Under the pieces are notes generated by a model. The model was not told where the DNA came from, did not search any database, and saw only the letters and a list, made by a program, of their open reading frames with translations. A program made the translations under genes and the position numbers. DNA of 40,369 nt. Origin: a virus. Every line of letters begins with the position of its first letter. Position 1 is the first letter of the stretch. The DNA is taken from positions 1 to 40,369 of IMG/VR virus record IMGVR_UViG_3300009285_005041, one strand, 5' to 3'. This document shows positions 11,363-39,866 of the stretch, one piece after another.

Positions 11363-11371
11363 GACAGGCTA

Positions 11372-11380
11372 AGTATAACT
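11372..11380 (-). promoter_or_regulatory. AGTTATACT late-type promoter element
   Basis: In the 29-nt gap after the last glycan gene. TATACT ends 9 nt before ATG 11362, so tail genes are probably transcribed independently of the glycan operon. Confidence 0.6.
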
Positions 11381-11391
11381 CAAGAGGTTAT

Positions 11392-13727: not shown

Positions 13728-14248
13728 ATATTCTCCATTATATTTCTAACATCTGTTATGTGACCACTACTCCAAAAATGAAAATACACCTTTTCTATAC
13801 TGTTATCTCTTATCCAATGTCCGGGCCTGTGGATTACATTGTCAATGGCTAAACCAGCCCTTGTAGCCGCCTTTGCTACATTATCCGAAGTCTTGCACTT
13901 AGGAGGGTAAAAGGTTGTCGGTCTTCTACCAAACTCCCTCCCTATAACATCACAGGACAGGCTAAGGTGACTATACACCTGATTCTCGCCAATACTGGTA
14001 TAAGTCCTATGCTCCCACCCATGACACTCAACAATCCAGTTTGGCCTCTTTTTGACATAATCTACCCACTCCTTGTTTCTTGCTATATCAATAGCTATAG
14101 CAGCAAGAATGACTGGCTCATTTTCCAATGGCCTCATTGCAAATTTAAACCAGCCAAAGAATGAATCCATTTCCAGCACCTTTCGTTGCGAAGGACTGAA
14201 CAAAGAGCTTTGAAACACATCGTGTACTACAAACAATGGCTTACTCAT
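13700..14248 (-). CDS. Polysaccharide deacetylase-like protein (NodB fold)
   Basis: 182 residues from ATG 14248 (MSKPLFVVHDVFQSSLF). A longer frame from 14269 adds seven residues. Features of the NodB fold are an N-terminal VVHDV strand (in place of the usual DDG), the metal-binding-like IVECHGWEHRTYTS (H-x3-H), and ATRAGLAI near the end. The N-terminal Asp pair of typical deacetylases is not clear, so catalysis may be altered. It sits between two methyltransferases in the glycan operon. Probable role is removal of N-acetyl from a sugar; a catalytically inactive relative is possible. Confidence 0.55.
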   Translation of the reverse strand: MSKPLFVVHDVFQSSLFSPSQRKVLEMDSFFGWFKFAMRPLENEPVILAAIAIDIARNKEWVDYVKKRPNWIVECHGWEHRTYTSIGENQVYSHLSLSCDVIGREFGRRPTTFYPPKCKTSDNVAKAATRAGLAIDNVIHRPGHWIRDNSIEKVYFHFWSSGHITDVRNIMENICHPQHAEQ

Positions 14249-14771
14249 ATTTCTTGGTGAACATAGCAACTACAAACGCACCTCTTTTACTCTTTGGATA
14301 TTTATATACCCCTAATAGGAGAAGAGAGCCAAACGGGTCTGTAACCTCTTCTGCCGAAGAAAAAGAATGGGGATGTTTTTCGTCTTCATCTAGGTAGTTA
14401 AATACGAACAACAAACCCTTTCTCTTTAGCCACGCAGTAATGTTGCTTGCGGTTAGTTCCAAGTCATCACAATGACTTAGTGTGTTGCTTATGATAATCA
14501 AGTCAAAGTTTTCATGAACAAATGCAGCATCCTCAACCTTTTCTCTGAACATTCCATACAGGGGGTCAACGGATACGCCGACACCCACATTCGGCAGAAT
14601 ACTTAGATAGCCACCAGACAAGCCGCTGCCTACTTCTAACGCCGTACTGAAACACCTATCCGTTATCCGCTTACCAAACTTCTTTAGAACCCAATGGAAG
14701 AATTTCTTCGTATCATCAACATCTTCAACATGCTTCTTCTCGAATTCTATATATCTGTTCCAAGACGTCAT
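14241..14771 (-). CDS. SAM-dependent methyltransferase-like protein
   Basis: 176 residues. The SAM motif is TALEVGSGLSGGYLSIL (GxGxxGG), with VGVSVDPLYG as the strand-2 acid, then FDLIIISNTLSHCDDLE and LKRKGLLFVFNYLDED as post-I and motif V-like elements. It belongs to the glycan operon and overlaps both neighbours by a few bases. It is likely a sugar methyltransferase, though a role on the lipid or protein acceptor cannot be excluded. Confidence 0.65.
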   Translation of the reverse strand: MTSWNRYIEFEKKHVEDVDDTKKFFHWVLKKFGKRITDRCFSTALEVGSGLSGGYLSILPNVGVGVSVDPLYGMFREKVEDAAFVHENFDLIIISNTLSHCDDLELTASNITAWLKRKGLLFVFNYLDEDEKHPHSFSSAEEVTDPFGSLLLLGVYKYPKSKRGAFVVAMFTKKYE

Positions 14772-15760
14772 AAATTCTCCAAAATAGCCTTCTCTACTTG
14801 ATTCTCAAAAACCTGTATGTTAAATCTGCGATTTACCAGGTCTTCCATGTGTTCCTGATGCTGCCCATATACCCAGGGATTCATACTCTCGGCGTTTTTC
14901 AAGATTTCATACGACCTGCCTCTCTCATATACCCCAAGAGGGAAATAGTCTATACCGACCTCCTGACTCAATATAGGTATAACACCACTTGCCATAGCCT
15001 CTAATACAGTACCCGGCTGTCCCTCCGATAGAGACGGGTAAAACATGAAGTCGGCCTCGCGTAATAAACTATTATATTCTTGTGACGCGCTATCTATAAA
15101 ACTGCGCACCTCTATGTTTACTGCCTTTATATTCTTGGCAAAATCAATCCAAAATCTCTCGTTTTGAACTTTACCAACACAGATTAACCTTGATCTATAC
15201 AAATTGGCTCGTTTGAAGTCGTTAACGACGTGCCAGAATCCCTTTCTCAATCCAAGAGTAGTTGCCACGTGGATAAACGTCGTTATTCCACTCTTAGCCT
15301 TTTCTTTACGCAGAAACTTGAATCCGGGCATACCGTAATCAAGCTCGCATACATTAGAGTGGTTGGCTCTATATTTACCGACCACAAAATTATGGCCCAA
15401 CACCAAAAGTACGTCTGCTAGATATATACCATCCGGCGCAAATGCATCAGATACCTTACAACCAAGCCTTCTAGCCTCGTTTCTAAGCACCTCTTTTGTA
15501 TACGACGGCTCCGCTATAGCCGGAAAGCAAAAGGTTCTACCAAACCTATTGCTTTTAACCAACCTCTCAAACGATCTTGGCAACGCTACAAGCACTTCAT
15601 AATGCTTATCTACCACATCATCGTTCCAATCTATATAGTCTACATCGCCTATTTTGCTACAAGCACGGTATAAAGCCGCAGCCAGCACTCCAGCAGAATG
15701 ACTGCTAACCAGCCCGTTTGGTATAAAATGCTTTTTTGAATACGAAAGTAGTATTTTCAT
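14768..15760 (-). CDS. Family 4 (GT-B) glycosyltransferase
   Basis: 330 residues. The N-terminal half is acceptor-like (LLSYSKKHFIPNGLVSSHSA). The C-terminal donor domain has RLICVGKVQNERFW and the retaining GT4 motif E-x7-E in PSLSEGQPGTVLEAMASG. Length is somewhat short for GT4 (often 350-400), so the N-terminal domain may be reduced. It overlaps both neighbours by 4 nt (ATGA), indicating coupled translation in the operon. Activity as a sugar transferase is likely; specificity is unknown. Confidence 0.75.
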   Translation of the reverse strand: MKILLSYSKKHFIPNGLVSSHSAGVLAAALYRACSKIGDVDYIDWNDDVVDKHYEVLVALPRSFERLVKSNRFGRTFCFPAIAEPSYTKEVLRNEARRLGCKVSDAFAPDGIYLADVLLVLGHNFVVGKYRANHSNVCELDYGMPGFKFLRKEKAKSGITTFIHVATTLGLRKGFWHVVNDFKRANLYRSRLICVGKVQNERFWIDFAKNIKAVNIEVRSFIDSASQEYNSLLREADFMFYPSLSEGQPGTVLEAMASGVIPILSQEVGIDYFPLGVYERGRSYEILKNAESMNPWVYGQHQEHMEDLVNRRFNIQVFENQVEKAILENL

Positions 15761-16527
15761 ACTTTGGTAGTTAAGAATTTACCCCATCTGCTAGTTATTA
15801 GATCCCAGTTTCTTCGCATGATCCTGTCATATCCCCTTTTAAGTTTGCTTCCCCTTCTTGTAGTCCCCCATTCAAGCGGCGATTTTATGTCGCACTGAAA
15901 GACTACATTCTGTAAACCGTGAGAAAACCTTGCACGACAGCAATAATCCACATCATCTCCCCATTGCGGATAAAAGATTTCATCTAAATAGCCTACATTT
16001 CGTAACAAATCCTTTGTGAATACAAGCGGGCCGCGGTTCAATATAGTTCTCCCAGCGTACTCAAACGGTTTTAGCAAAGTATTTTCATCTTTTATGTGTT
16101 GCCAAGCAGAAACCCTAGAAATCGGCTTTTCGGGAAAAGATAGCTCGTTTAGTTCAAAACCGTCCCGACCACCCAAAAGACCCAGGGATTTGCCATAGAA
16201 AGCTATCACATTGCCTATTTTCTCTTTTATATGGATATCCTCGCATACCATATCATCTTGGAATAGAATAACGACGTTGCCTTTTGCTTCTCGTAACAAC
16301 ACATTGTTTGCTTTTATCTCAAACAGCTCTGCATCGGGAACTATTACTCTAGCGCCGAAATCGTTTAGCTGTTGAAATAATTTTAGTGAATTATCAGTAC
16401 AGTTATCAAACAAAAATATAATCTCGTCATCCCGGCTAAAACATTGTTTAACTCCGTGGATTATTTCCGATATCAAATGCGCTTTGTTGAATATAGTGTA
16501 ACCGACGGTTATTGTGTTTGAATTCAT
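15757..16527 (-). CDS. Family 2 glycosyltransferase
   Basis: 256 residues from ATG 16527 (MNSNTITVGYTIFNKAHLI), chosen because the GT2 strand begins there. ATG 16554 adds nine residues with a GGAGG inside them. Donor-site elements are EIIFLFDNCTDNS and NVVILFQDDMV (QDD as the DxD-like metal motif). Later YPQWGDDVDYCCRARFSHG resembles the GGxDxD acceptor motif. The gene overlaps GT2 16448-17233 by 80 nt. Substrate unknown. Confidence 0.75.
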   Translation of the reverse strand: MNSNTITVGYTIFNKAHLISEIIHGVKQCFSRDDEIIFLFDNCTDNSLKLFQQLNDFGARVIVPDAELFEIKANNVLLREAKGNVVILFQDDMVCEDIHIKEKIGNVIAFYGKSLGLLGGRDGFELNELSFPEKPISRVSAWQHIKDENTLLKPFEYAGRTILNRGPLVFTKDLLRNVGYLDEIFYPQWGDDVDYCCRARFSHGLQNVVFQCDIKSPLEWGTTRRGSKLKRGYDRIMRRNWDLITSRWGKFLTTKV

Positions 16528-17233
16528 CCTCGTTGAAATATACCTCCTTTCCATTTGTCAGTATCTCTTTGATTGGTATAGCTTCTTTGTAATTATAGCC
16601 GTCACGAAAACCAACATCATCTACCATTACATCCGGCGTTACTGCAACAGCAAATTCAAGCCTTATTGCCTTTTCTGTCCACTTTGTACCCGCCACACGA
16701 TGGCACAAGAAGCCGCCGATTTCTTTCAAGTCTTTCCTTCTTATTACAAAGCAATTGCTTCCGGCACGTGAATTCAGACGATATGCTCTGTCGCCAACCT
16801 CTAAGACCTCATCGTGCCAGAATTTGGGCAGCCAATGAGCTACGTTATACACAGGGGTTGCGTAAATCTTTTTATGCGGGTATTTTTCCAGTACAGCAAC
16901 ACATGCCTCTAACCAGCCGGGGGTGTAGATTATGTCGTTATCCGATATACAGATATAATCCCCGTTTGACAATACCATTCCTTGGTTTCTCGCGTATCCA
17001 AAATGCATATTGTTAGCGTTTCTAACATATGTTTGAATAGCCCCCCCTACTACTAAGGAAAGAAAGAATTGCGAATCCTGTTCGTTCTGTCCGTTATCAA
17101 CAACAACGATCTCGCACGGATAGCTCTTTGTAGTCTCAACAAGAGAATTCATAGAAGCCATCATTTGCTCCGATCTCTTCTCGTCTTTGTGGTAATGAAC
17201 AAATATTATCGAGCAGAGTTTTGTTTTATCCAT
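16448..17233 (-). CDS. Family 2 glycosyltransferase
   Basis: 261 residues. It opens with SIIFVHYHKDEKRSEQMMAS and then EIVVVDNGQNEQDSQFF (first Asp site). The motif NGDYICISDNDIIYTPGWLE supplies the D-x-D metal site, as in SpsA-like enzymes. The start lies inside the 3' end of the AsnB-like gene, overlapping by 28 nt. Together with the three other GT2 and two GT4 genes it implies a multi-sugar chain. Inverting transfer in the cytoplasm is expected for the family. Confidence 0.75.
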   Translation of the reverse strand: MDKTKLCSIIFVHYHKDEKRSEQMMASMNSLVETTKSYPCEIVVVDNGQNEQDSQFFLSLVVGGAIQTYVRNANNMHFGYARNQGMVLSNGDYICISDNDIIYTPGWLEACVAVLEKYPHKKIYATPVYNVAHWLPKFWHDEVLEVGDRAYRLNSRAGSNCFVIRRKDLKEIGGFLCHRVAGTKWTEKAIRLEFAVAVTPDVMVDDVGFRDGYNYKEAIPIKEILTNGKEVYFNEDEFKHNNRRLHYIQQSAFDIGNNPRS

Positions 17234-18744
17234 ATATCTTTTATCCTGCTAAAATAGTGATCTCTGTTGTAGTCTTTTATACCATACCACTTATTGTACG
17301 GTACCAAAAGACCTGTTTTTTCCTTTTCCACAGGTAGGTTTACACGTTTATTTAGTACCCCCAAGGCACGGCGCAAGAGCACTTTTGTTTCAAGATTGCT
17401 GATTTTTAAATGCATAGGCAAAGACAGCCCAAACTCAATAATCCTTCTGTCAAGGAACGGACACCTGTTTTCAATACCGAACATTCCCGACATTCTATCT
17501 CCCATCTGCAAAAGTGACGGCAAGATATATGTAAAGTCGAATAGCTGCATCGCAGTTAGTGGATCGTAATTATTGAAAAACGGCCGCATCAGTCCCTTCA
17601 TAAAGACATAGCTGGATTCGTCACTTCTGTTAGTCAAAAGCATATATCTCGCTAAGTGATTAGAAGCAAATAGTTTTTTAAACAGAGGTTTATAAGACGG
17701 GTATTTCATGTCAAGCCAATGTAGCATGCTAACTGGTAGATAACGCACGTAACCTCCGAACACCTCATCGGCGCCCTCACCAGACATAATGACCTTTTGC
17801 CTGTGTTTCTTAGCATCTCTTGCCAGAGAAAATAGTCCATAAGAGCTAAAAGAACCGACAGGGAAGTCCAGATGATAAACAATCTTTTCTATATTTCTCT
17901 CAAAGTCGGCTTTATCCAGCTCTTCCGGCATATATGTAAAACTATACTGACCTTTGAAATTGCCATAAAGCTGAATAAGAGTTGAATCCACGCCACCAGA
18001 AGCATATAAACCATAGCCCGCGTCACTTCTTTGTCTAATACGAACGGCATCCCCAAACAGGGAATCAAACTCCTCTAAGACGGTGTCCTCATTTATATAC
18101 CTTGGTTTAAACTCCCAATACCTGTAAGTTGAACAGGCACCACTTGCAAACTCAAATTTCATGTAATGCGCGGGCAAAAGCTCTTTTACATCTTTGTACA
18201 AAGTACCCAATCTACAGTGTTGAAATGTATCAAAGAAGATATTATCCATATCAATGGCGCCCTTTAGAGCTTTAGCCTCCGATGAAAAAGCAAAGTTATG
18301 AGGTTCTGTTCTATAATATAGAGGCTTTTCCCCGGTCATATCCCGTGCCAAGAATATACCCGACAAATCACTTATAGCAAAAGCAAACATGCCGTTAAAT
18401 CTGTCCAAACAGCCAACACCCCAATGCTGATACGCTTTTAATACCACCTCTGTATCAGATTCAGTCTCAAAAAACCATCCGTATTCCCTCAACTCCTCCC
18501 TAAGCTCGATGTAGTTGTATAGTTCGCCATTAAATACAATTGTTTGGCCACGGCTTGTATAAGGACATAGATTCTTCGACTTGAGATCAATTATGGAGAG
18601 TCTATCCATTCCAACCGTGAAATACTCTTCATGGGAAGAGTGTCTGTAGGTAACGGTACCAGAGTCATCCGGACCGCGATGCTTCATGATCTTTAGCATT
18701 TTCAGCACTTCTTTTTTGGTTTTAGCGCCGGCAATAGCACACAT
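17206..18744 (-). CDS. asnB: Asparagine synthase-like amidotransferase
   Basis: 512 residues starting at ATG 18744, which overlaps the previous stop (TGATG). This start leaves Cys as the second residue (M-C-A-I-A-G), the N-terminal nucleophile of class II glutaminases. Other glutaminase sites are MKHRGPDDSGT, IVFNGELYNYIEL and DTEVVLKAY. The ATP-pyrophosphatase domain has the PP-loop in GLYASGGVDSTL and a late signature VIMSGEGADEVFGGY. Both half-reactions therefore look intact. In O-antigen clusters AsnB/WbpS-like enzymes amidate uronic acids, and a UDP-sugar dehydrogenase lies two genes away. Amidation of a uronic acid is the favoured role; free asparagine synthesis is the alternative. Confidence 0.75.
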   Translation of the reverse strand: MCAIAGAKTKKEVLKMLKIMKHRGPDDSGTVTYRHSSHEEYFTVGMDRLSIIDLKSKNLCPYTSRGQTIVFNGELYNYIELREELREYGWFFETESDTEVVLKAYQHWGVGCLDRFNGMFAFAISDLSGIFLARDMTGEKPLYYRTEPHNFAFSSEAKALKGAIDMDNIFFDTFQHCRLGTLYKDVKELLPAHYMKFEFASGACSTYRYWEFKPRYINEDTVLEEFDSLFGDAVRIRQRSDAGYGLYASGGVDSTLIQLYGNFKGQYSFTYMPEELDKADFERNIEKIVYHLDFPVGSFSSYGLFSLARDAKKHRQKVIMSGEGADEVFGGYVRYLPVSMLHWLDMKYPSYKPLFKKLFASNHLARYMLLTNRSDESSYVFMKGLMRPFFNNYDPLTAMQLFDFTYILPSLLQMGDRMSGMFGIENRCPFLDRRIIEFGLSLPMHLKISNLETKVLLRRALGVLNKRVNLPVEKEKTGLLVPYNKWYGIKDYNRDHYFSRIKDIWIKQNSAR

Positions 18745-19700
18745 CACTTCGCCTTAAGCTGACTTTCTATCCATTTGTATGTTGTTTTAATCCCATCATC
18801 CAAAGAAACAGTCGGAAACCAACCAAGCGTGCTGTTAGCTAGTGTGTGGTCTATATACCTGTTTCTGACTCCCTGCGGCCCATCCACATGCTTTAATCCA
18901 AAATCCTTGCCTGAAATGGCTATAATCTTTAGAGCAAGTTGATTCACAGTAACAACCTCATCGGAACCAAAGTTTACCGGGCCGTCATAATCCGATTGCA
19001 TAAGCCCATATATACCGCTCAACAAGTCAGAAATATACAAAAATGACCTGGTGGCTAAACCATCCCCCCACACCTCTACCTCACTCCCATTAGTAGCCAA
19101 TATAACCTTTCTACACAACGCCGCAACAGCCTTCTCTCTTCCACCTTCAAAAGTACCATAAGGACCATAAGTGTTTTCAAACCTAGCAATCCTTACCTTT
19201 ATACCGGTTTGCTCTTTGTAAGCCGAAAGTCTTTGCTCATGCAAAAGCTTTTCCCATCCATAAGCCTCATTCGGACTAGCAGGATAGGCATCTTCCTCCT
19301 TTAATATATCCACAACTTCTTGTTGCCTATACGTAGGATATACGCAAGCAGAAGAAGAAAAGAAATACTTTTTAACCCCCATTTTTACCGCCTCATCAAT
19401 TGTATATGTATCTATAAGATTGCTGTTATAAAGCGGAGCAATGTGCTCTTTTGAGATGAAACCCATTCCTCCCATATCGGCAGCGAGATGGTAAACCTCA
19501 TCCATACCCTCTAAAGCTCTACGACAGGAGGTTCTTATCCTCAAGTCAAGCTTTATGAATTCATCAGCTACACTTCTTCTATATTCTGGCAGCTTTATAT
19601 CGACGCCACGAACCCAATAACCCAAATCTTTCAAATAATCGACAAGATGGCCACCAATAAACCCCCCAGCTCCGGTGACTAATATCCTTTCACTTCGCAT
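18744..19700 (-). CDS. GDP-mannose 3,5-epimerase-like SDR enzyme
   Basis: 318 residues of extended short-chain dehydrogenase/reductase fold. The NAD motif is VTGAGGFIGGHL near residue 8. Catalytic residues are Ser in SSSACVYP and Tyr/Lys in YGWEKL. Substrate-side elements YHLAADMGGMGF, ENTYGPYGTFEGGREKA and WGDGLATRSF are close in pattern to plant GDP-mannose 3,5-epimerase, which epimerises GDP-mannose to GDP-L-galactose or GDP-L-gulose. A generic NAD-sugar epimerase/dehydratase remains possible. The gene overlaps the UGDH-like gene by 11 nt and the AsnB-like gene by 3. Confidence 0.75.
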   Translation of the reverse strand: MRSERILVTGAGGFIGGHLVDYLKDLGYWVRGVDIKLPEYRRSVADEFIKLDLRIRTSCRRALEGMDEVYHLAADMGGMGFISKEHIAPLYNSNLIDTYTIDEAVKMGVKKYFFSSSACVYPTYRQQEVVDILKEEDAYPASPNEAYGWEKLLHEQRLSAYKEQTGIKVRIARFENTYGPYGTFEGGREKAVAALCRKVILATNGSEVEVWGDGLATRSFLYISDLLSGIYGLMQSDYDGPVNFGSDEVVTVNQLALKIIAISGKDFGLKHVDGPQGVRNRYIDHTLANSTLGWFPTVSLDDGIKTTYKWIESQLKAK

Positions 19701-20523
19701 CTATTCTATTTAACTCCCTGAATTTTATGTTTACCTTGTCGGCTGCTCGCATAAGCTCCGGCACATAACCAACGTCTGTAGTATCTTTGATTATAGCCCT
19801 TGTATCCTTTGGATAACACTTACCTCCATAGCCTCTGTCTTTTGGCATTACCATAGTGTGCATCGGGCTCACCCGGCTATCAGCCAACCAAAGCTCTCTA
19901 AGAGCGTTGTAATCAACCCCGTGAGCCTTTGCCACCTCATACCACTCATTGCAAAACGTGACTTTCATGGCAAAAAAGCTATTCTCCATATACTTTGCAA
20001 GGGCGGCAGTTTTAATATCGGTCTGATAGAAACGTACATGCGGCCCCATTATTCGCACAAACACATCCACACAAAAGCTGGTATCTTCTTGATTGCCGCC
20101 AAATATCTGAAAGTCGTGCATTTTCATCTCTTTAGGATCGGGATACTTCCAAAACGGAGTAAAATACCTCGACTCACCCATATATTCAGGCGAGAATACT
20201 GTATGTTTATAACCCTCCTGTATCTTCTCAAGAACGCTTGGCGGAGTTGTAGACTTAATTAAAACCACACCCTTATAACCAATATCAATTATCCAATCAA
20301 CACTTTCCCAGATTAACGATACGTTTGCGCTCCAATCAGCAGATTCATTAGTCGGAACACATACAACAATCAAATCCAAATCTCTAAAGGACTCCTTATC
20401 CGTCTTATATGCGCCCTTTGTCAGATTAACGTGAGGATCGTATATAGCAGCCACATCCTCTTTAAAAAGACCGTGTATTCCCTTGCCAACAACCCCGTAG
20501 CCGACAATTCCTATTTTATACAT
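19690..20523 (-). CDS. UDP-sugar 6-dehydrogenase-like, lacking the C-terminal domain
   Basis: 277 residues. Order of elements: NAD-binding KIGIVGYGVVGKG at the N-terminus, LDLIVVCVPTN, VVLIKSTTPPSV, VFSPEYMGES, a helical dimerisation segment (ALAKYMENSFFAMKVTFCNE), and the catalytic-Cys motif YGGKCYPKDTRA. These match the UDP-glucose/GDP-mannose dehydrogenase family, which oxidises the sugar C6 to a uronate in two steps. Family members are usually about 400-450 residues; this one ends soon after the Cys motif and lacks the C-terminal UDP-binding domain. The gene starts within the previous stop (TAATG). Activity on a sugar nucleotide is therefore uncertain. Confidence 0.7.
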   Translation of the reverse strand: MYKIGIVGYGVVGKGIHGLFKEDVAAIYDPHVNLTKGAYKTDKESFRDLDLIVVCVPTNESADWSANVSLIWESVDWIIDIGYKGVVLIKSTTPPSVLEKIQEGYKHTVFSPEYMGESRYFTPFWKYPDPKEMKMHDFQIFGGNQEDTSFCVDVFVRIMGPHVRFYQTDIKTAALAKYMENSFFAMKVTFCNEWYEVAKAHGVDYNALRELWLADSRVSPMHTMVMPKDRGYGGKCYPKDTRAIIKDTTDVGYVPELMRAADKVNIKFRELNRIDAK

Positions 20524-21485
20524 TATCTTACCCCCTCAACTTTAGCTACAACCAGCTGGTCTTTATTATCGTCGCCGACAATCTCCTCTCCTGACCAGTT
20601 TTGGAGCTTATCTACAGAATATATTGTCACAGATTGGAAATTAGCCCTCATCAAATCTCGGAACTCTTTAATACCCCACCTATGCAGATGTAAATGATTA
20701 TTGGCATCCCTGACATCAGTATCCGTATTTCCAATATTGGGAATTGTTATAAAGCCCACAGTAGAAAGCTTATCCGAGAAAAACCTTTTCATCGTGCCCA
20801 AACCTATATCAACATTGGCCAGATGTTCTATTACCTCTATACAAACAACAACCTCAAACGGCGCGATCTCTCTTGTCGGAGGGTTCTCAATATCAAGCAG
20901 TGCAAAAGAAAGATTCGGTCTGGCAAATGCTTGCTGGGCAAACTCCAGAGACTTTGGATTGATATCCACTCCCCATACATGCCTGGCCTGATGAGCCAAA
21001 ATGTTTGATCCTACGCCCAAAGAACAGCCGATATCCATAACCGTTCTTCCGGCAATCCAATAATCACGTATTTTTTCGTACAAGTTTCTCTGTCTGCTCG
21101 GAATCAAAAGGTTGATGTCGTTAAACCTTTTGGTCATCCTTCCAAGCCAATCATAATCCGCAGAAACATTAACCAATTGCTCCTTTGCAACTTCTATAAC
21201 TGCGTCCTGAAACAGACTAACAGGCTCTTCCGCAACAATGCTAACTGTGGCACCCTCCGGAGGAGTTTGTTCGGCAATCTTATTCTCCTGCTCGACTATC
21301 TTGTAGCAATCATCACACAAAAGATTGTTATAGCTGGCAGGAATATCCTTACCACACCTCTCACACTTCTTCGGCCCGCCTTTGGCAGCCTCACCCTGAA
21401 TCTTTTTGTAACAATCCATACACAGAGCATTTATATAATCGTTCGGTATAGAAGTGCCACACTTTTCACATACTCTATCTGCCAT
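20523..21485 (-). CDS. SAM methyltransferase with duplicated N-terminal zinc ribbon
   Basis: 320 residues. Residues 7-27 and 41-61 are near-copies of a four-cysteine ribbon (CEKCGTSIPNDYINALCMDC; CERCGKDIPASYNNLLCDDC). The methyltransferase domain follows at about 135-310: TVMDIGCSLGVGSN (GxGxG-like), VWGVDINPKSLEFAQQA, VVVCIEVIEHLAN and GFITIPNIG. The 'IEVIEHL' motif is typical of UbiE/UbiG and 3-O-methyltransferases of class I. It starts by overlapping the GT4 gene. The ribbons may bind a protein or nucleic-acid partner; this is inference. A glycan or lipid acceptor is likely given context. Confidence 0.7.
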   Translation of the reverse strand: MADRVCEKCGTSIPNDYINALCMDCYKKIQGEAAKGGPKKCERCGKDIPASYNNLLCDDCYKIVEQENKIAEQTPPEGATVSIVAEEPVSLFQDAVIEVAKEQLVNVSADYDWLGRMTKRFNDINLLIPSRQRNLYEKIRDYWIAGRTVMDIGCSLGVGSNILAHQARHVWGVDINPKSLEFAQQAFARPNLSFALLDIENPPTREIAPFEVVVCIEVIEHLANVDIGLGTMKRFFSDKLSTVGFITIPNIGNTDTDVRDANNHLHLHRWGIKEFRDLMRANFQSVTIYSVDKLQNWSGEEIVGDDNKDQLVVAKVEGVR

Positions 21486-22767
21486 AACACATCTCCAAAA
21501 TAGCAGGCTCTAACTGCCTCTTAAATATATAATCCACGTTAAACTCACGTCTTAGTCTTGTAGCGGCCTTTATAGCAGCATTATTGTCAAACTCCGACAA
21601 TGTTAGCTTTGCCACGTCTTTATAATAACTATCCTGACCAAGAGGATATTGCGGGCTATCTACCAAAGACCCAAACCTGAAATACAAAGCATTCTCGGCA
21701 GCAAAATCTCTCATAGCTGGAAAACTGTAGTTTAAAACAAGGATATTTTTTGCCGCCATAGCCTCCAACAATATCAACGGACAGTTTTCAGATACCGAAG
21801 GGAAGATAAATACATTCCCAAGTGTGAAAAGATCTCGCACAACCTCATGCGACACGCCGTGTTCCAACGACGGGGCCTCAAATAGTGAGGTAAAAACCAG
21901 ATCACGTCTTTCAAGACCACAGGTATAAGCAAAACTATACATTTCCTCTATCGCATCTTTCTCTTTTTGAGCGTTGGCATGAGCATTTGGTACGATCAGC
22001 TTCACGCTCCTACCAAGGCTTTTCATATGCCCGGCAATCCAGATGACTTTGCTCAACTGCTTGCCAGCATCTCCCATTCTTGTTGTGGATAAAGGATAAA
22101 CAATGAGTATTTCGGGTGACAAAAGATCATAGAAATCAGCCAAACGTCTTGTTAAATCATTAAAATTATACAAATCCCTAATATCCATTGGATTAAATAT
22201 TGTTCTGACGTCCTTTGGCCATATACCATACATTTCTGCTGCTCTTATAGCGTCCGTATAGTTCATGTATACAAGGCGGGAATTCTTTGGCAAAGTATAT
22301 AAATTGTCATAGGGCGACCCATCCATAGTAGGACGAATAGACGGACCAGAGTGCATCCAATGTAACCACTTAATATGAGATAACTTAGTATCCATCGCAT
22401 TTCTCATTGCCTGATTGTATGGCAGGTAACTGTTTATAAAAATGATGTCATGCGTAAGACATACGTCTATATCCTGCATATTTTCTTCCATTGCAACAGT
22501 CGCCTTTTTTACATCCGAGTCAAAGTTACTCAAATCCGCTTTTGAATACGGCTCAAGAATAAGCCTTGGTAAAACCCTCCTCACCTCAACACCACCAGGT
22601 ACTCTACCCTCCGTATCCTGGAACGTCTCAAGAACAAACAGCACCGGCTCATAACCATGTTTGTATAAAGCCGTGAGCTGCTGCGAAACAACTGTTGCCA
22701 GAGAAAACTCCGGCCTAAGATCGTTAAATGTTGTTAGAATGCCGATTTTCAATTTTCTATCTCTCAA
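21475..22767 (-). CDS. Family 4 glycosyltransferase, head of glycan operon
   Basis: 430 residues from TTG 22767, preceded by GAAGGAGGT with 5 nt spacing, a near-perfect SD. ATG 22785 extends the frame by six residues that encode the SD itself, so TTG is preferred. N-terminal strand LKIGILTTFNDLRPE is acceptor-domain-like. The donor domain has LIVYPLSTTRMGD, then PSVSENCPLILLEAMAAKN, the E-x7-E signature of retaining GT4 enzymes. A candidate TATAAT lies 32 nt upstream. Donor and acceptor unknown; likely initiates or extends the glycan. Confidence 0.75.
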   Translation of the reverse strand: MRDRKLKIGILTTFNDLRPEFSLATVVSQQLTALYKHGYEPVLFVLETFQDTEGRVPGGVEVRRVLPRLILEPYSKADLSNFDSDVKKATVAMEENMQDIDVCLTHDIIFINSYLPYNQAMRNAMDTKLSHIKWLHWMHSGPSIRPTMDGSPYDNLYTLPKNSRLVYMNYTDAIRAAEMYGIWPKDVRTIFNPMDIRDLYNFNDLTRRLADFYDLLSPEILIVYPLSTTRMGDAGKQLSKVIWIAGHMKSLGRSVKLIVPNAHANAQKEKDAIEEMYSFAYTCGLERRDLVFTSLFEAPSLEHGVSHEVVRDLFTLGNVFIFPSVSENCPLILLEAMAAKNILVLNYSFPAMRDFAAENALYFRFGSLVDSPQYPLGQDSYYKDVAKLTLSEFDNNAAIKAATRLRREFNVDYIFKRQLEPAILEMCYGR

Positions 22768-22799
22768 TTTTACCTCCTTCTGCATTTTTATCTGTCCGT

Positions 22800-30718: not shown

Positions 30719-32215
30719 TTAGGCCGGGTATCTTGCGCCCGCCCTTATGCGTACCCGCTCCGTCTTTACCCTCGGAGGGTTCGCAAGCTCTAACATTGAT
30801 GCCAAGGCATCAATCAAGTCGTCATTTCTTCCCCTCGGAAATCGTCTTAGCTCGTCTTCAAGAAGTGACATTAGAGACGCCTGTTTGTTGTGAAATACCT
30901 GACCGGTCTCGTACCTTGGCTGCAACCCCCTTATACGCTCATCTTTTGTGACTTCGGCATGCTTTAGGTCTTTTATCGGTAAAGACTTGTTCCTTCGCTT
31001 CATCTCCTCATAAGCAAAGAACTGCAGTGTCCTTTGAAACGCCGTAGTCTCGATCCCGATTGATACGGGATGGTGCTTGTCGTCCCAATAAAATATCTGG
31101 TCTAAAAGCCTCTTGGGGTCGACCTTATCCCTCCATAAATCCAAAATATACCACACGTTGTTCTTGTCTACTCCAATACAAACCATCGCCGAATAATCCG
31201 CCTCTTTGCGTTCAGACAGCGCCGGATCAACCGCAATGAATTTATTTAACGGCAGTCCTCTAATGTCAGTTGGATCATAATAAATAAAGTCTGATTTGAA
31301 AACGGCGTCATCCAAAGGTACGGGATCAAGCAAGTATTGGGCTGCAAAGTGTCCGGAACCCTGCTGCTTTCTTAACATTTCAAGCTGCTCCCAGCCAAGC
31401 CTGGGCTCAAACAGCAATTCTCCAGTTCCCCAATCCCCTTCAAAAGCGGGCATTCTCATAACCTCAAAGTTATCAAGATATCCTCCCAGCTTGTCCTGGA
31501 TTCTCGCATAAAGGTCGTCCTGGTGCCAGGTAGTGCCGATCACAATAACCTCTTTATGCCCGAATTTGTTCCTGTCAACCAAATCTAGCGTGTCCTTGTA
31601 GAAATTGACAACCCCCTCAATCCTATCCCGCGTCCTGATGTTATCCCTGTTTACCAAATCGTCCAGTATCGCAACGTCAAAGTGCTTTCCCGTGTAGTTT
31701 GATTCCAGACCCAACGCCGTTACCGTGGGCTCCTTTGTCCGATAAGATATGGGATGGGCTACAGCTATCTGATCCTCCCTCCACATCGTTGATCCAGTCG
31801 CTAGATCTCCAAAGAACCTCTTAAACTGATCGTTTTTCTCCAAATGATCTTTTACCTGGGATAGAAACCCCACAGACATGGGATACGTTGCGTTGGCAAT
31901 CAAAACCCTAATAGAAGGATCCTGGGCTATTCTCCAAAGCGTATATCCTACCGTCACAATGGAGGATTTGAAAGTGCCCCTTGGAAGCAACAACAATAGT
32001 TGCTTCTTCTTGACGTTGTTGACGATAAAGTCACAAATCTTCCTGTGCAGTCTCTCGTAAATGTCCGGCCAGCCCAAAACCTTCTCGTTAAATTCATAAA
32101 ATTTCTGGCTGTAATACTTCTTACCCACCTCCCGATGGAGCGCATCGACCTCTTCATACTTTTTGATAAGCTCCCGCCTAAGTACGACTTCGCTTACCTT
32201 CTTCTCATCCGTCAT
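30719..32215 (-). CDS. terL: Terminase large subunit
   Basis: 498 residues. ATPase half: Walker A-like LPRGTFKSS (77-85), Walker B VAILDDL (181-187) and the coupling motif VIGTTWHQDDL (225-235). Nuclease half (RNase H fold): Asp330 in FIAVDPALSE, Glu389 in SIGIETTAFQ and the Asp pair plus Asp in GRNDDLIDALASM (about 462-474). All key sites look intact. TerL cuts concatemeric DNA and drives it through the portal. The start overlaps the preceding stop (ATGA). It is separated from TerS by four small genes, an unusual but not unknown arrangement. Confidence 0.9.
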   Translation of the reverse strand: MTDEKKVSEVVLRRELIKKYEEVDALHREVGKKYYSQKFYEFNEKVLGWPDIYERLHRKICDFIVNNVKKKQLLLLLPRGTFKSSIVTVGYTLWRIAQDPSIRVLIANATYPMSVGFLSQVKDHLEKNDQFKRFFGDLATGSTMWREDQIAVAHPISYRTKEPTVTALGLESNYTGKHFDVAILDDLVNRDNIRTRDRIEGVVNFYKDTLDLVDRNKFGHKEVIVIGTTWHQDDLYARIQDKLGGYLDNFEVMRMPAFEGDWGTGELLFEPRLGWEQLEMLRKQQGSGHFAAQYLLDPVPLDDAVFKSDFIYYDPTDIRGLPLNKFIAVDPALSERKEADYSAMVCIGVDKNNVWYILDLWRDKVDPKRLLDQIFYWDDKHHPVSIGIETTAFQRTLQFFAYEEMKRRNKSLPIKDLKHAEVTKDERIRGLQPRYETGQVFHNKQASLMSLLEDELRRFPRGRNDDLIDALASMLELANPPRVKTERVRIRAGARYPA

Positions 32216-34088: not shown

Positions 34089-34613
34089 CTATTTGCTTGA
34101 TAGCTCCCCTTCCAGTAAGATGTTATCCTTCATTTGCTTGACATCATTTAGCAATGTCTCAACATGGGTTGTTATATCATCAAGTGTTTTACCTTGCAAT
34201 GACACGGTTAAAGTGCGCTGCTCGATTTGCTTTCGTTCGGCTGGGAACGAGTCAAGCAGCCTAAAACCCATTTCAATGCCGCGCAAAGCATCAGAGTTAG
34301 TGGCTTTTTTTCCAATTCCGCTATCAATCGCGTCGTGCAGTTTTTTTGATAGGGTGCCTTCACTTATTTGGTGAGAAGCTAAAACGGCACGCAATTCCTC
34401 CCGTATGGCGGGCTTTAACAGGTTCTCAGTACCCATTGACCGCGCGACCTTATCATTTTTCGCGCTATACCCCGCCGCAATTGCCGCTTTCCTACTACTG
34501 CCATCATTCATTATATAAGCGTCAACGAATCTTTTTTGTTTGGGAGTTAGTTTATTACCAGATGCAGTCTCAATAAGTAAACTGCGCTTGACTTGCCCAC
34601 GCTCACTTGCCAT
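34089..34613 (-). CDS. terS: Terminase small subunit
   Basis: 174 residues from ATG 34613. The frame extends 71 residues further up but that part is Cys/Phe-rich and covers the divergent promoters, so it is not coding. The Terminase_2 pattern LTPKQKRFVDAYIMNDGSSR, then KAAIAAGYSAKN, then ENLLKPAIREELRAVLAS is clear, with an N-terminal helix-turn-helix for binding packaging sites. The C-terminal half is a long helix and coiled coil (TTHVETLLNDVKQMKDNILL). It is separated from TerL by four small genes. Confidence 0.85.
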   Translation of the reverse strand: MASERGQVKRSLLIETASGNKLTPKQKRFVDAYIMNDGSSRKAAIAAGYSAKNDKVARSMGTENLLKPAIREELRAVLASHQISEGTLSKKLHDAIDSGIGKKATNSDALRGIEMGFRLLDSFPAERKQIEQRTLTVSLQGKTLDDITTHVETLLNDVKQMKDNILLEGELSSK

Positions 34614-34620
34614 ACCACAA

Positions 34621-34649
34621 AAGATACCACAAACAGCACCGCCGTGCAA
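34621..34649 (-). promoter_or_regulatory. Promoter of TerS, leaderless geometry
   Basis: -35 TTGCAC (34649-34644), 17 bp, -10 TATCTT (34626-34621). The -10 ends 7 nt before ATG 34613, so transcription would begin at or next to the start codon. No SD is present. Confidence 0.55.
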
Positions 34650-34685
34650 AACAACACCGCACACAAAACATCTATTGTTAAACAC

Positions 34686-34715
34686 TTGACAAGCATTGAA
34701 CATCCGTGCTAGTAT
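34686..34715 (+). promoter_or_regulatory. Sigma-70-like promoter of the plus-strand cassette
   Basis: TTGACA (34686-34691), 18-bp spacer, TAGTAT (34710-34715) with an upstream TG (34707-34708), an extended -10. It is the only near-consensus -35/-10 pair noticed. The start would be near 34722, a leader of about 34 nt before ATG 34756. Confidence 0.75.
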
Positions 34716-34755
34716 CCTTCTTGTTAGTGAGAATATATTGAAATTAAAACAAAAA

Positions 34756-34974
34756 ATGAGAATCGTAGACTTAAAACAAACAGCAAAAGCGTACCAAAGA
34801 CACAAGGCAATGCGCCGCAAGCTCAACGCGTGGCTTATTCTAGCAGTATCGATTTATATAATCAGCTTATGGGGCGGGTTGGCCATGGACAAAAATCCCC
34901 TTACCGTCTGCCATGACAACGGCGAACCCGTACCACAAGTTGATTATACATACAAAGGCGGTGACACAAATTGA
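34756..34974 (+). CDS. Small membrane protein of the amidoligase cassette
   Basis: 72 residues from ATG 34756. A TTG 60 nt upstream is in frame but overlaps the promoter, so it is rejected. N-terminal 22 residues are basic (AYQRHKAMRRKLN). One hydrophobic segment covers about 24-44 (AWLILAVSIYIISLWGGLAM). About 28 polar residues follow, including one Cys. This fits a single-pass, N-in inner-membrane protein. No SD is clear. It may be an anchor or an independent accessory factor; function unknown. Confidence 0.6.
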   Translation: MRIVDLKQTAKAYQRHKAMRRKLNAWLILAVSIYIISLWGGLAMDKNPLTVCHDNGEPVPQVDYTYKGGDTN

Positions 34975-34992
34975 CTTTTTTACAGTTAGCAG

Positions 34993-35118
34993 ATGAACTG
35001 GGACTATCTCTGTTATTTTACCGATAGCCTAATTGCTGATGGGATTTTGTCGCACGATATGCAGGAAATACTACCTGAATTGAAAGCACTAGGTAATTTG
35101 GAAGGTGAAAGCAACTAG
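34993..35118 (+). CDS. 41-residue ORF in the amidoligase cassette
   Basis: MNWDYLCYFTDSLIADGILS, then a 21-residue helical-looking tail (starts HDMQEILPELKALGN, ends GESN). Acidic, no membrane segment. Located 18 nt after the membrane-protein stop and 73 nt before the amidoligase start, with only a weak SD. Sequence is protein-like, but the short length makes it uncertain. Confidence 0.45.
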   Translation: MNWDYLCYFTDSLIADGILSHDMQEILPELKALGNLEGESN

Positions 35119-35137
35119 CATAGTACATAATTAGCAC

Positions 35138-35176
35138 GCTCGCCGCTTGTTTAGTGCTAGTTAGCAAGGGGCGAGC
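35138..35176 (+). promoter_or_regulatory. Hairpin immediately upstream of the amidoligase gene
   Basis: GCTCGCCGCTTG (35138-35149) pairs with CAAGGGGCGAGC (35165-35176) with one mismatch; 15-nt loop. It ends 15 nt before ATG 35192. No U-run follows. It may be an attenuator or limit translation of the amidoligase. Confidence 0.55.
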
Positions 35177-35191
35177 AACAAAGGCATAAAA

Positions 35192-36523
35192 ATGGAAACT
35201 AAAAAGGAAATGACAGAGCTAGCAACAACAACAAAGGAAATATACTCATGCTATCTATGCAAAAAAGAGATATTACCAGAAGATAGCAGCGACATTGACG
35301 GCGAATTCTATTGCGAGGACTGCAAAAGCGAGCACTTCATTTCCTGCGCCCATTGTGAGGATTTGGTAGCAGTAGATGAGCTGTGCGCGGGTAACGACGA
35401 ACCTTACTGCGAAACCTGCTTTGATAAACTTTTCATTGGATGTAGCGACTGCGGCAAGCTTATATTCCAGGATGAAGCGACAGAGACAAACAACGGCAAC
35501 AATGTTTGCCAGGAATGTTATGACGCCAACTATTTTATTTGCGACGGATGCGGAGGAATCTATAACAGGGATGACGAGAACTATTGCGACCGCTGCGACG
35601 TTTACCGATGTCGTGGCTGCTTGGAACAAGACCATTCAAATTGCGATGATGACAACGACTACAGTCAAGAATGGCACAACATACCACAGGAAACCGACTA
35701 CAAACCAAGTCTTATCAAAATTGACAGGTTTGTTGGTGTTGAAATGGAGCTGGAAAAGGACAATTGGGACACTAGGATGAACGATATTGCAGACAAACTA
35801 CCTGATAGTGTTGGTATCAAATCCGATAGCAGCCTTGATGATGGCATAGAGATAGTTACGCCGCCGTGCAGACTAGGAAAACTAGAGGAAATAATCACGA
35901 AAGTATGCAAAGTAGCAGACGATAACAACCTGGTGGCGCAAAGGTCTTGCGGACTTCATATCCATATTGACGCTAACGATTTTAGAGATGATAATTCGAA
36001 GATTTTACACGTATTGCAAACCTATTACGTTATTGAGCCGATAATATATAGCATCCTGCCGCGGTCAAGATACACGGGGACTTTTTCAGTACCGCTAAGA
36101 AAAAAGTACACCAATGAGCATATCAACGGCATATCACCTGGCGATTTGGACTTGAAATGGTATTCAGAATCGCCGGAAGCGGAAAGCCTATTGTCAAAGG
36201 ATACAGTTAATGAACGCAAAGGCTGCCATAGCGACCGCACACGATACTTCGGGTTGAATTTACACTCAATATACTACCGAGGCACACTAGAGCTTCGCTA
36301 TCATAGCGGCACATCAGATAGAGTTAAAATCATCAATTGGATACACCTAAATCTTGTGATATTGGATTGGATACTTCACAAGTTTAGCAAACCGCGCTTG
36401 GACAAGTTAAACACAAACTTATCGCTGGAATCGTTTATCAAGTTTTTCAAGCTGGAAAAAAGCACTGCTAAATATCTTACAGCAAGAGTCAAAAAGTTCA
36501 GCAGTGGCGAGGATGACAACTAA
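35192..36523 (+). CDS. Zinc-ribbon/LIM-like plus amidoligase_2 (GS-like ATP ligase)
   Basis: 443 residues. Residues 20-151 carry at least four CxxC pairs spaced as treble-clef/LIM-like fingers (C20/C23 with C41/C44; C52/C55 with C73/C76; C84/C87 with C106/C109; C117/C120 with C132/C135; then C140/C143). The C-terminal part is an amidoligase_2 domain: GVEMELE (182-188), SDSSLDDGIEIVTPP (211-225), SCGLHIHID (252-260), RYFGLNLHS (351-359) and TLELRYHSGT (365-374). These match the Glu/His/Arg sites of the family, which uses ATP to join a carboxylate to an amine. Substrate unknown. The glutamine amidotransferase starts one base after its stop, so the two probably act together. Confident on family, not on reaction. 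Confidence 0.8.
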   Translation: METKKEMTELATTTKEIYSCYLCKKEILPEDSSDIDGEFYCEDCKSEHFISCAHCEDLVAVDELCAGNDEPYCETCFDKLFIGCSDCGKLIFQDEATETNNGNNVCQECYDANYFICDGCGGIYNRDDENYCDRCDVYRCRGCLEQDHSNCDDDNDYSQEWHNIPQETDYKPSLIKIDRFVGVEMELEKDNWDTRMNDIADKLPDSVGIKSDSSLDDGIEIVTPPCRLGKLEEIITKVCKVADDNNLVAQRSCGLHIHIDANDFRDDNSKILHVLQTYYVIEPIIYSILPRSRYTGTFSVPLRKKYTNEHINGISPGDLDLKWYSESPEAESLLSKDTVNERKGCHSDRTRYFGLNLHSIYYRGTLELRYHSGTSDRVKIINWIHLNLVILDWILHKFSKPRLDKLNTNLSLESFIKFFKLEKSTAKYLTARVKKFSSGEDDN

Positions 36524-36524
36524 A

Positions 36525-37478
36525 ATGTGCGGCGTTACGGGCTACATATCAAAACACCCAACCGCCAGAACGGCGCACGCATTTAAAACGCTATTACTTG
36601 CAAACCAGGAACGCGGGGACGAATCAACGGGCGTATACTTCTACAACACCAATACTATACAAAAAGACACCAAAAAGGCTTCAGATTTTCTATCACAACT
36701 GGACAACCCACAGTTTGCCAAAAATAACATAGTACTGGGACACACAAGGCTTGCGACAATGGGAGCAGTAACAAAAGACAACGCCCATCCGTTCAAATTC
36801 GGGGATATAACGGGTATCCATAACGGCATAGTTAGCAATGCGTACTCGATATATCCCAATGCACAGGTTGACAGCCAGGCTATATTTTACTTGTTAGACA
36901 AAAATAAAAACGACTACAAAAAATCTTTCAAGCAGCTATCGGGAAATTTTGGAGTTGCCTGGACTTACAGCAATGATGATAACTTATATCTCGTGTCGCA
37001 CGGAAACCCGATACATATTGCGCGCTCAAATGGCGACTTGTATTTTTCAAGCGACGGATACCCGTTACTCATTACACTATATGCTATATACAAACAGGTT
37101 GATAGTTTAAAAAAGATTGACGAGGATGTAGTTTATATCATCAATTCAAAAACGCTTGATATTACAAAGAAAAACATAGAATTTAAACAAAGCCCATTCG
37201 CCTATTTGCATTATGCTAACGAATACGCCGCACATAGTGAAAGTGAACTAATCGCGGATGAATGGGAAAATGCATGGGAAGATGACACAGGAGACAAACT
37301 AGGCTATGAAAACGAGTTAAAAAACATCATGCGCGGCGAAGGATGTATAATGTGCGGCACACCGTTAACCCATTACGGGTATATTGACGATGTAAGCCTT
37401 GAAACGTACTGCACAAGATGTTATCAAAAACTCAATATAGAAGCACAAAACGAGCTACTCTTTATTGAAATAGACTAG
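36525..37478 (+). CDS. Class II glutamine amidotransferase with C-terminal zinc ribbon
   Basis: 317 residues from ATG 36525, which puts Cys2 (M-C-G-V-T-G) at the new N-terminus, as these enzymes need; the GTG at 36504 would bury it. Class II sites: RGDESTG (30-36), GHTRLAT (72-78), NAHPF (86-90), GIHNGIVSN (97-105), VDSQAI (115-120) and GNFGVAWTY. This is the glutaminase half of GlmS/PurF-like enzymes without the synthase half. Residues 274-299 (C274, C277, C296, C299) form a four-Cys zinc site. It lies one base after the amidoligase stop. Likely supplies glutamine-derived ammonia, or trims a gamma-glutamyl bond; the acceptor is unknown. Confidence 0.8.
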   Translation: MCGVTGYISKHPTARTAHAFKTLLLANQERGDESTGVYFYNTNTIQKDTKKASDFLSQLDNPQFAKNNIVLGHTRLATMGAVTKDNAHPFKFGDITGIHNGIVSNAYSIYPNAQVDSQAIFYLLDKNKNDYKKSFKQLSGNFGVAWTYSNDDNLYLVSHGNPIHIARSNGDLYFSSDGYPLLITLYAIYKQVDSLKKIDEDVVYIINSKTLDITKKNIEFKQSPFAYLHYANEYAAHSESELIADEWENAWEDDTGDKLGYENELKNIMRGEGCIMCGTPLTHYGYIDDVSLETYCTRCYQKLNIEAQNELLFIEID

Positions 37479-37533
37479 CAAGATAGCAAACACCGCTTAA
37501 CTAGCCCCTAACTAGCCAAAAAACATCATAGTT

Positions 37534-37568
37534 AAAAAGCCATAACTAGCACAAGGTTATGGCTTTTT
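37534..37568 (+). terminator. Strong terminator after the amidotransferase, A/T-rich on both sides
   Basis: Perfect 13-bp stem: AAAAAGCCATAAC (37534-37546) and GTTATGGCTTTTT (37556-37568), 9-nt loop, then GTTT. The leading A run could make it work from the other side as well. Confidence 0.9.
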
Positions 37569-37582
37569 GTTTATGATTGGAG

Positions 37583-37798
37583 GTGATAGCAATAGCAAAC
37601 AGCACAACCCACCCTGATACAGGATGGACAATACAAGAAAAAGGAATATGCGACAGATGCGGCAACATAGAGTCTTTTCGACTTATCAGCTTGCCATACC
37701 GCAAAACATACGTGCAGCTATGCGCATGGTGTTTTCATGGCTTAAAAAAGTATTTCGAGCTTGACGACGGACTAAAACCAATGGACAAAAGGGAATAA
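37583..37798 (+). CDS. Small four-cysteine zinc-ribbon protein
   Basis: 71 residues if read from GTG 37583. A perfect SD (GGAGGTGAT, 37579-37587) overlaps that GTG, and the next in-frame codon at normal distance is ATA 37592, so the start is doubtful. CDRC and CAWC pairs frame residues that include ESFRLISLPYRKTY. Ends LKKYFELDDGLKPMDKRE. It is the third gene in the cassette region with a CxxC pair, but it lies beyond the terminator. Function unknown. Confidence 0.55.
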   Translation: MIAIANSTTHPDTGWTIQEKGICDRCGNIESFRLISLPYRKTYVQLCAWCFHGLKKYFELDDGLKPMDKRE

Positions 37799-39097: not shown

Positions 39098-39465
39098 ATC
39101 TCCCCCTCTCCATTTGGTTGTTTGATTTCAAAAGCTATTTTACGCATATCCTCTAAGTGATACTTAGTTGCTACTAACTCCGCACCTATAGCTTCTTTCT
39201 TAGTTGGGGGTGTCGTCTCTGTTATTGCATCTACCAAAAGTTGCCAAGCAAATGTCGGTAGCATTAGTGTTGGTTTTTCTTCTTCACCTTCTTTTATTTC
39301 TGTAAACTTTAAGTTACCGTCTTTCTCAACACTCGCTAGAAGTGCTTTGTTTCCATTTCTTTGTAAAACATACACAGCTATGGTGTCACTCCAACCTCTG
39401 CGCTGTACTATTACTTTCCAATTGTTTTCTTCCTTATACGATTCGTTAAAGTTATTTGTTGCCAT
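39094..39465 (-). CDS. Hypothetical protein
   Basis: 123 residues, unrecognised. A small beta-rich N-terminal half (WKVIVQRRGWSDTIAVYVLQ) and a helical C-terminal half (AWQLLVDAITETTPPTKKEA). Start overlaps the methyltransferase stop (TAATG) and has AGGAGA upstream. Co-expressed with the methyltransferase; role unknown. Confidence 0.5.
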   Translation of the reverse strand: MATNNFNESYKEENNWKVIVQRRGWSDTIAVYVLQRNGNKALLASVEKDGNLKFTEIKEGEEEKPTLMLPTFAWQLLVDAITETTPPTKKEAIGAELVATKYHLEDMRKIAFEIKQPNGEGEI

Positions 39466-39866
39466 TATTCTGTCTCCTTTTGTTTGGTTTTGAGGGCTAC
39501 AATAGCACTAGGAAAAGGTGCTGAATTTACAGCTCCCTTAAACTTTAACCTGCCTTTAATAAAACGAATCTCATCAGCTTTCATAATGTAATCGTGCCAC
39601 CATTTTGTATCAGTTCTACTCGGTATTAAAAACACTACAATCTTTCCCTTTTGGACTTCCTCGTAACCCTTTTTGATCCATTTAGGCAGTTCTCTGCCGT
39701 AAGGCGGGTTTACAAAGTTTCTTCTACCCCACTCAATAGACAAGCCGTCAAAGGCAGGGTTTACGGGACACGGATCAAAGTCAAAATGGAACTCTCCGTC
39801 TAAAGCGTCATAGACTGCATCGGGCGTTTGCCAATCAAGTTTTTGGCTCATAAAGTGAACATTCAT
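39465..39866 (-). CDS. dam: Phage DNA N6-adenine methyltransferase (Dam-like)
   Basis: 133 residues (128 if Met6 in MNVHFMSQKLD is used). WQTPDAVYDALDGEFHFDFD opens the 'phage N-6-adenine-methyltransferase' pattern, CPVNPAFDGLS follows, and the catalytic NPPYGRELPKW (DPPY-type) is intact. LIPSRTDTKWWHD and FPSAIVAL are further family strands. It probably methylates adenine in the phage genome to escape restriction. Overlaps the previous gene by ATGA and has GGAGG upstream. Recognition site is unknown. No matching restriction enzyme is seen, so it is likely an orphan. Confidence 0.8.
   Translation of the reverse strand: MNVHFMSQKLDWQTPDAVYDALDGEFHFDFDPCPVNPAFDGLSIEWGRRNFVNPPYGRELPKWIKKGYEEVQKGKIVVFLIPSRTDTKWWHDYIMKADEIRFIKGRLKFKGAVNSAPFPSAIVALKTKQKETE

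Follow-up and report, generated by a model that had tools for sequence, protein, structure and literature searches.

Genes for an amidoligase and a glutaminase are common in phage genomes, and their role has been guessed at since 2009 as wall modification and superinfection exclusion. Following Iyer and colleagues and Hardies 2013, papers refer to the phage cassette containing them as a peptidoglycan modification cassette that is thought to block superinfection (PMC5498523; PMC10580990), and elsewhere it is mentioned as a set of auxiliary metabolic genes (PMC10945688). Our literature search found no experiment on the function of the cassette in any phage. Here we analyse such a pair in a podovirus-like contig of a virus of bacteria, IMG/VR record IMGVR_UViG_3300009285_005041 (40,369 bases; this whole stretch is called the window). 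Its amidoligase (AMI) carries tandem zinc ribbons at the N-terminus, and its partner is a class II glutamine amidotransferase (GAT). With modest confidence, we favour the reading that the two genes are one unit encoding a self-sufficient, two-subunit, glutamine-dependent amide synthetase. This reading is based on the protein families, the intact catalytic residues, the folds, the coupling of the genes, their matched divergence and the lack of dependence on ATP-grasp, COOH-NH2 ligase or gamma-glutamyl cyclotransferase (GGCT) genes.

The amidoligase and GAT pair itself is already known in phages. In the cassettes of phiEco32, LUZ24/PaP3, RIO-1/PSA-HP1 and ECBP2, an amidoligase_2 gene is directly followed by a class II GAT gene, the same order as in the window. 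In the phiEco32/LUZ24/RIO-1 type, the GAT, like that of the window, often ends in a Cys ribbon, whereas the amidoligases lack the N-terminal ribbons of AMI, and genes for a COOH-NH2 ligase, an ATP-grasp protein and often GGCT are added. None of these three genes was found in the window, a contig that may be incomplete; the other genes recognised there belong to the structural, DNA or polysaccharide classes. Four loci (L016, L017, L005 = MW202733 and L006 = MT839723) resemble the window more closely, with a ribbon-bearing AMI and a GAT in the same order and no accessory genes. Both proteins of L016 are about 35% identical to those of the window; the GATs of L005 and L006, unlike the window GAT, have no C-terminal ribbon. 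Phages of Gram-positive bacteria show a third arrangement: Bacillus 031MP004, Geobacillus GR1 and Clostridium prophages share the amidoligase core, but theirs is a ribbonless amidoligase accompanied by GGCT and has no adjoining GAT. The ribbon-bearing, accessory-free AMI-GAT pair is a distinct and widespread variant. MurT/GatD and EgtA/EgtC offer a parallel in the way of working, a ligase acting with a separate glutaminase or gamma-glutamyl hydrolase. MurT is a Mur ligase and GatD a class I enzyme, with folds unrelated to AMI and GAT, and EgtC is only a distant relative of the window GAT. The PADLOC defence models gave no match to the pair.

The two enzymes

The pair comprises the following features:

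35192-36523, plus strand: amidoligase_2 with four N-terminal zinc ribbons, 443 aa (AMI; PF12224, E=4.2e-24)
35249-35620, plus strand: four tandem LIM-like zinc ribbons of AMI (from the Cys pattern and the alignment of relatives)
35735-36310, plus strand: glutamine synthetase (GS)-like ligase core of AMI (invariant residues in 40 sequences)
36525-37478, plus strand: free-standing class II glutaminase, 317 aa (GAT; PF13522, E=1e-10)
37344-37421, plus strand: C-terminal four-Cys ribbon of GAT (CxxC..CxxC, residues 274-299)

A single base separates the AMI stop codon TAA (36521-36523) from the ATG of GAT at 36525. AMI scored 86.2 bits against PF12224 (curated cut-off 22), and E184, E186, D212, S214, E220, C253, G254, H256 and H258 as well as R351, Y352, N356, E367, R369 and G373 are invariant in 40 AMI sequences. 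Residues 1-143 contain nine CxxC motifs, including four regular CxxC-(17-19)-CxxC ribbons (C20/23-C41/44, C52/55-C73/76, C84/87-C106/109 and C117/120-C140/143). The Cys residues of ribbons 2-4 are retained in 34-38 of 40 relatives, and 12 Cys residues are invariant even across the window AMI, a phage fragment from the human gut and a podovirus from spring water. An earlier note on this DNA had described a multi-zinc-finger amidoligase_2 with intact family motifs; the PF12224 match and the 40-sequence alignment confirmed this, and the ribbons are real and conserved.

For the structure predictions, alignments made from viral-contig loci (A5 and A6) were used. The AlphaFold model of AMI had a mean pLDDT of 89, and a Foldseek search of the PDB matched its core to YbdK (1.2e-4), glutamine synthetases, gamma-glutamylmethylamide synthetase (GmaS), Dop and PafA, with E-values for the YbdK, GS, GmaS and Dop matches from 1e-4 to 2e-3. 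The N-terminus matched LIM domains (LMO2, PINCH1). A sequence comparison found no solved structure near the ligase core; the YbdK/GS/GmaS/Dop superfamily shares the fold but only about 10-14% identity with AMI, and it is without ribbons. AMI combines a GS/GCS-like fold with the conserved acidic and basic residues of the active site. The structural check suggested in the earlier note thus recovered GS-like folds and therefore gave no ground for rejecting the assignment. From its family, fold and intact motifs, AMI is predicted to form amide bonds in an ATP-dependent manner.

The second gene had been described as a free-standing class II glutaminase with Cys2 and a C-terminal four-Cys ribbon, which proved correct. 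Cys2, R75, T78, G80, N100, G101 and D116 are retained in at least 35 of 36 sequences, and GAT has the class II features, namely Cys directly after Met, the Arg/Asn/Gly/Asp glutamine site and the N-terminal nucleophile hydrolase fold of the GlmS/PurF type. The AlphaFold model (mean pLDDT 83; residues 226-261 poor) was matched by Foldseek to the GlmS glutaminase domain (1.5e-15) and also to PurF and EgtC (2e-11), and a sequence-profile comparison with GlmS gave 1e-28. GAT shares fold and active site with the glutaminase domains of GlmS and PurF, in which a synthase domain is fused, whereas the window GAT is free-standing and carries a ribbon. It is not a full GlmS/PurF protein (65 bits against a cut-off of 418 for TIGR01135, and no further domain), nor, by equivalog score, an EgtC gamma-glutamyl hydrolase (23 bits against a cut-off of 219).

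The C-terminal ribbon of GAT also occurs in the nearest relatives L016 and L017. It was found in 34 of 56 GAT partners of ribbon amidoligases and in 30 of 52 partners of other amidoligases; the ribbon is shared by phage GATs in general and not special to the ribbon-amidoligase variant. The idea that ribbons on both enzymes form a signature of the system was abandoned, since the GAT ribbon is equally frequent beside the other amidoligases.

Recurrence of the pair

The survey drew on viral contigs (458 relatives, of which the best 80 were retained, and 80 GAT loci), phage records and genomes, and comprised 188 amidoligases after dereplication at 80% identity. Amidoligases with at least four CxxC motifs before the ligase core were classed as ribbon amidoligases. 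The broad alignments A1 and A2 were too divergent for pattern search and the closer sets A3 and A4 were used instead. Single-protein scans of viral contigs gave no relative, and plasmids yielded only three weak amidoligase matches. The earlier note had proposed to look for the gene pair in related phages; such a search showed it again in dozens of contigs.

A GAT gene adjoins the ribbon amidoligase in 82/94 representatives. In 70 ribbon pairs, the AMI stop and the GAT start are a median of 2 nt apart, and in 55 of them the distance is within 25 nt. The distance matrices of AMI and GAT are correlated with r=0.88 (permuted maximum 0.22) and with r=0.74 in phages alone. A natural AMI-GAT fusion was looked for and none was seen. 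A gene for GGCT, ATP-grasp or COOH-NH2 ligase was present in the analysed stretch of 4/94 ribbon amidoligases but of 75/90 ribbonless ones; these counts are limited by accessory-gene seeds taken from a few phages, by neighbours lost at contig ends and by a query that itself bore ribbons. A tree built from the ligase core requires about 8 changes between ribbon and ribbonless, so the contrast in accessory genes reflects a few large lineages, and an independent-pairs sign test was not significant. The idea that ribbons and loss of the accessory genes are correlated in evolution independently was set aside, as the tree offers too few independent contrasts.

The placement of the pair in phages is also recurrent. 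The earlier note had pointed to a plus-strand unit in a region otherwise read on the minus strand, and indeed the long open reading frames (ORFs) flanking it (terminase large subunit, portal, capsid and sugar cluster) are read on the minus strand, the AMI-GAT unit being the only plus-strand exception.

30719-32215, minus strand: terminase large subunit gene, divergent from the AMI-GAT pair

Thirteen other contigs encode a related terminase large subunit; in all of them its gene is found about 1.1-3.6 kb upstream of the ribbon amidoligase and is read from the opposite strand, the orientation of the window. The plus-strand island is therefore recurrent and not peculiar to this contig.

Some contigs carry more than one amidoligase. 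In L021-L035, L049, L096 and L097 the order is AMI1-GAT-(conserved protein of about 100 aa without a Pfam match)-AMI2, so that two ribbon amidoligases surround one GAT. L017, L019 and L047 contain two complete AMI-GAT pairs each; in L017 and L019 one pair has ribbons and the other does not, which hints at two targets.

Units in Clostridia genomes

The 80 genome matches retained were all from Clostridia, mostly Oscillospiraceae, although the search patterns favour close relatives. In most of these loci AMI and GAT overlap or touch. Thirteen pairs of copies, each pair from a single genome, were compared; what the two copies share is often only a unit of about 2.5-4.7 kb, which has sharp ends and lies between unrelated flanks. 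In L177 (5571-8643) and L179 (5567-8643), the unit consists of a DUF960-like gene, AMI, GAT and a serine recombinase gene that ends with the unit. A serine recombinase gene lies directly 3' of the pair in about 36/80 genome loci (72 matches, two seeds each) compared with about 2/83 phage loci; L196 has a tyrosine recombinase in its place. The Clostridia units are possibly an undescribed tiny mobile element. The most economical reading of these arrangements is that the pair probably works alone and moves as a unit; since the units are so compact, no third dedicated enzyme seems needed.

Compact units were also seen at L196/L204, L183/L232, L222/L223 and others, often with DUF960 or DUF3846 and with a serine recombinase gene at the end. 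Several of the units have a ATATATTATCTCCAT-like stretch at the left end, the literal motif being found by motif scan in only 9 loci.

Function of the pair

According to the favoured reading, GAT would hydrolyse glutamine and the freed ammonia would be transferred to AMI. AMI would activate a carboxylate with ATP as an acyl phosphate, as in enzymes of the GS/YbdK type, and convert it into a carboxamide or, less likely, join another amine to it. The tandem ribbons of AMI and the single ribbon of GAT would most probably hold the partners together in a putative physical complex and/or dock on a substrate carrier, i.e. serve as scaffold or target-binding parts. The acceptor is more likely a host component (a cell-wall peptide or a protein carboxylate) than a virion part, because the pair also occurs in small Clostridia units outside phage structural genes.

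Several points weigh against this reading. The contrast between ribbon and ribbonless amidoligases in accessory genes is essentially clade-level and marks a variant, not a causal link. The co-divergence of AMI and GAT is partly due to shared descent of their carriers. The class II fold is also used by gamma-glutamyl hydrolases such as EgtC. Finally, GAT has Leu76 and Met79 at what we take to be the positions of GlmS Trp74 and His77, and hydrolysis of glutamine by GAT is therefore likely, not certain.

In ergothioneine synthesis, a gamma-glutamyl group is attached by EgtA and then removed by EgtC. In the main rival reading, AMI might by analogy add gamma-glutamate to an amine and its class II-fold partner might remove it. 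The best solved fold match of AMI, YbdK, is a relative of gamma-glutamylcysteine ligase, GAT matches EgtC by fold and weakly by NCBIfam, and the phages that carry GGCT but no GAT beside the amidoligase look as if the partner removed gamma-glutamyl groups. GAT is, however, far closer to GlmS (NCBIfam 1.7e-21 against 3.3e-5 for EgtC, besides the profile match given above), and ammonia supply is therefore favoured. Moreover, the LUZ24 type has both GAT and GGCT, so the two are not simple substitutes, and we consider such make-and-break chemistry unlikely. A chance neighbourhood of two enzymes with unrelated single roles might be read from the 12/94 ribbon amidoligases without a neighbouring GAT in the stretch retrieved, several of which are at contig ends; given the adjacency in the remaining representatives, the short gaps and the matched divergence, it is very improbable.

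The other alternatives concern the target. Amidation of host cell-wall peptides that would block superinfecting phages is compatible with the synthetase reading and was published as a proposal for the larger cassettes of the phiEco32/RIO-1 type (PMC5498523; PMC10580990, citing Iyer 2009); MurT/GatD provides a precedent for amidation of wall peptides by a ligase and glutaminase pair (PMC3267633). On the other hand, the minimal pair lacks the enzymes underlying the proposal of three peptidoglycan linkages, the literature search brought no phage experiment to its support, and the likeness to MurT/GatD does not extend to the folds. We regard a wall target as possible, though doubtful. Slightly less probable in our opinion is that the pair is not a wall modifier but a general tool of mobile elements, acting on a host protein, nucleotide or metabolite in counter-defence or takeover. 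Its presence in both phages and small recombinase-bearing Clostridia units would fit, as would the sigma-70-type (host type) promoter-like site upstream of the unit. The LIM-like ribbons would fit as protein binders, a function such ribbons often have. Known defence models were not matched, however, and nothing points to a particular target.

In a further reading, the pair could be an autonomous mobile module that installs amides, carried by phages (divergently beside the terminase) and by recombinase-bearing elements of about 3 kb in gut Clostridia, and modifying a host target via its LIM-like ribbons so that the element persists by exclusion, counter-defence or takeover. We put this forward only tentatively; if true, mobile elements would have a new class of effector chemistry. 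The ribbon pair is the simplest natural version of the gene set, two proteins without accessory enzymes, present in phages and in cultivable gut Clostridia. Owing to this simplicity the question of the amidation target is directly testable, and a product, if found, would help to explain a gene set of hundreds of phages.

Boundaries of the unit and flanking ORFs

The following features flank the pair:

34686-34715, plus strand: promoter-like site TTGACA-18-TAGTAT with TG before the second hexamer (10/12; best match in the region)
34696-34974, plus strand: small TTG-start ORF with one likely membrane helix (nothing above cut-off in Pfam or PHROG)
34993-35118, plus strand: 41-aa ORF (no matches in Pfam or PHROG)
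37533-37569, plus strand: intrinsic terminator, inner stem AAAAAGCCATAAC/GTTATGGCTTTTT (15-pair stem; -25.2 kcal/mol, z -6.05)
37577-37798, plus strand: 73-aa CxxC ORF past the terminator (TRASH-like Pfam score weak, below cut-off)

The terminator that the earlier note had placed after the pair was found, with a 15-pair stem; it is strong and closes the AMI-GAT unit. The near-consensus promoter proposed for the unit fared less well. The site matching in 10 of 12 positions is present, but such sites are not in excess in the region (7 compared with 8.6 in shuffles, sd 3.0), and its use as a promoter is unproven. The small terminase ORF at 34089-34826 (minus strand), called from a TTG, is probably too long. 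Its terminase match begins at residue 93, so translation probably starts near 34613, and this leaves the divergent promoter region free.

An organised complex with the enzymes had been suggested for the membrane peptide and the 41-aa ORF, and a third CxxC protein had been noted past the terminator. No relative of any of the three was found in any related locus, and the CxxC ORF had none among 50,697 phage records. As conserved parts of the unit they were ruled out by the absent relatives, and they are probably incidental to it. The earlier interpretation is thus partly supported: it stands for the enzymes, their folds and motifs and the gene pair, and finds no support for these three ORFs.

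Other genes of the window

A large sugar cluster at 9584-22785 (minus strand) has several glycosyltransferases and three methyltransferases among its genes, and its gene content suggests that it could produce an amidated or methylated glycan. It includes:

17206-18747, minus strand: asparagine-synthase-like amidotransferase, the second glutaminase gene of the window (PF00733, 3e-44)
18744-19700, minus strand: nucleotide-sugar epimerase
19690-20523, minus strand: UDP-glucose dehydrogenase
20523-21485, minus strand: methyltransferase with a weak double zinc ribbon

Relatives of the asparagine-synthase-like amidotransferase were found in only 13 phage records, at about 30% identity. Towards the end of the window lies one more methyltransferase gene:

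39465-39866, minus strand: Dam-type N6-adenine methyltransferase (PF05869, 5.6e-19)

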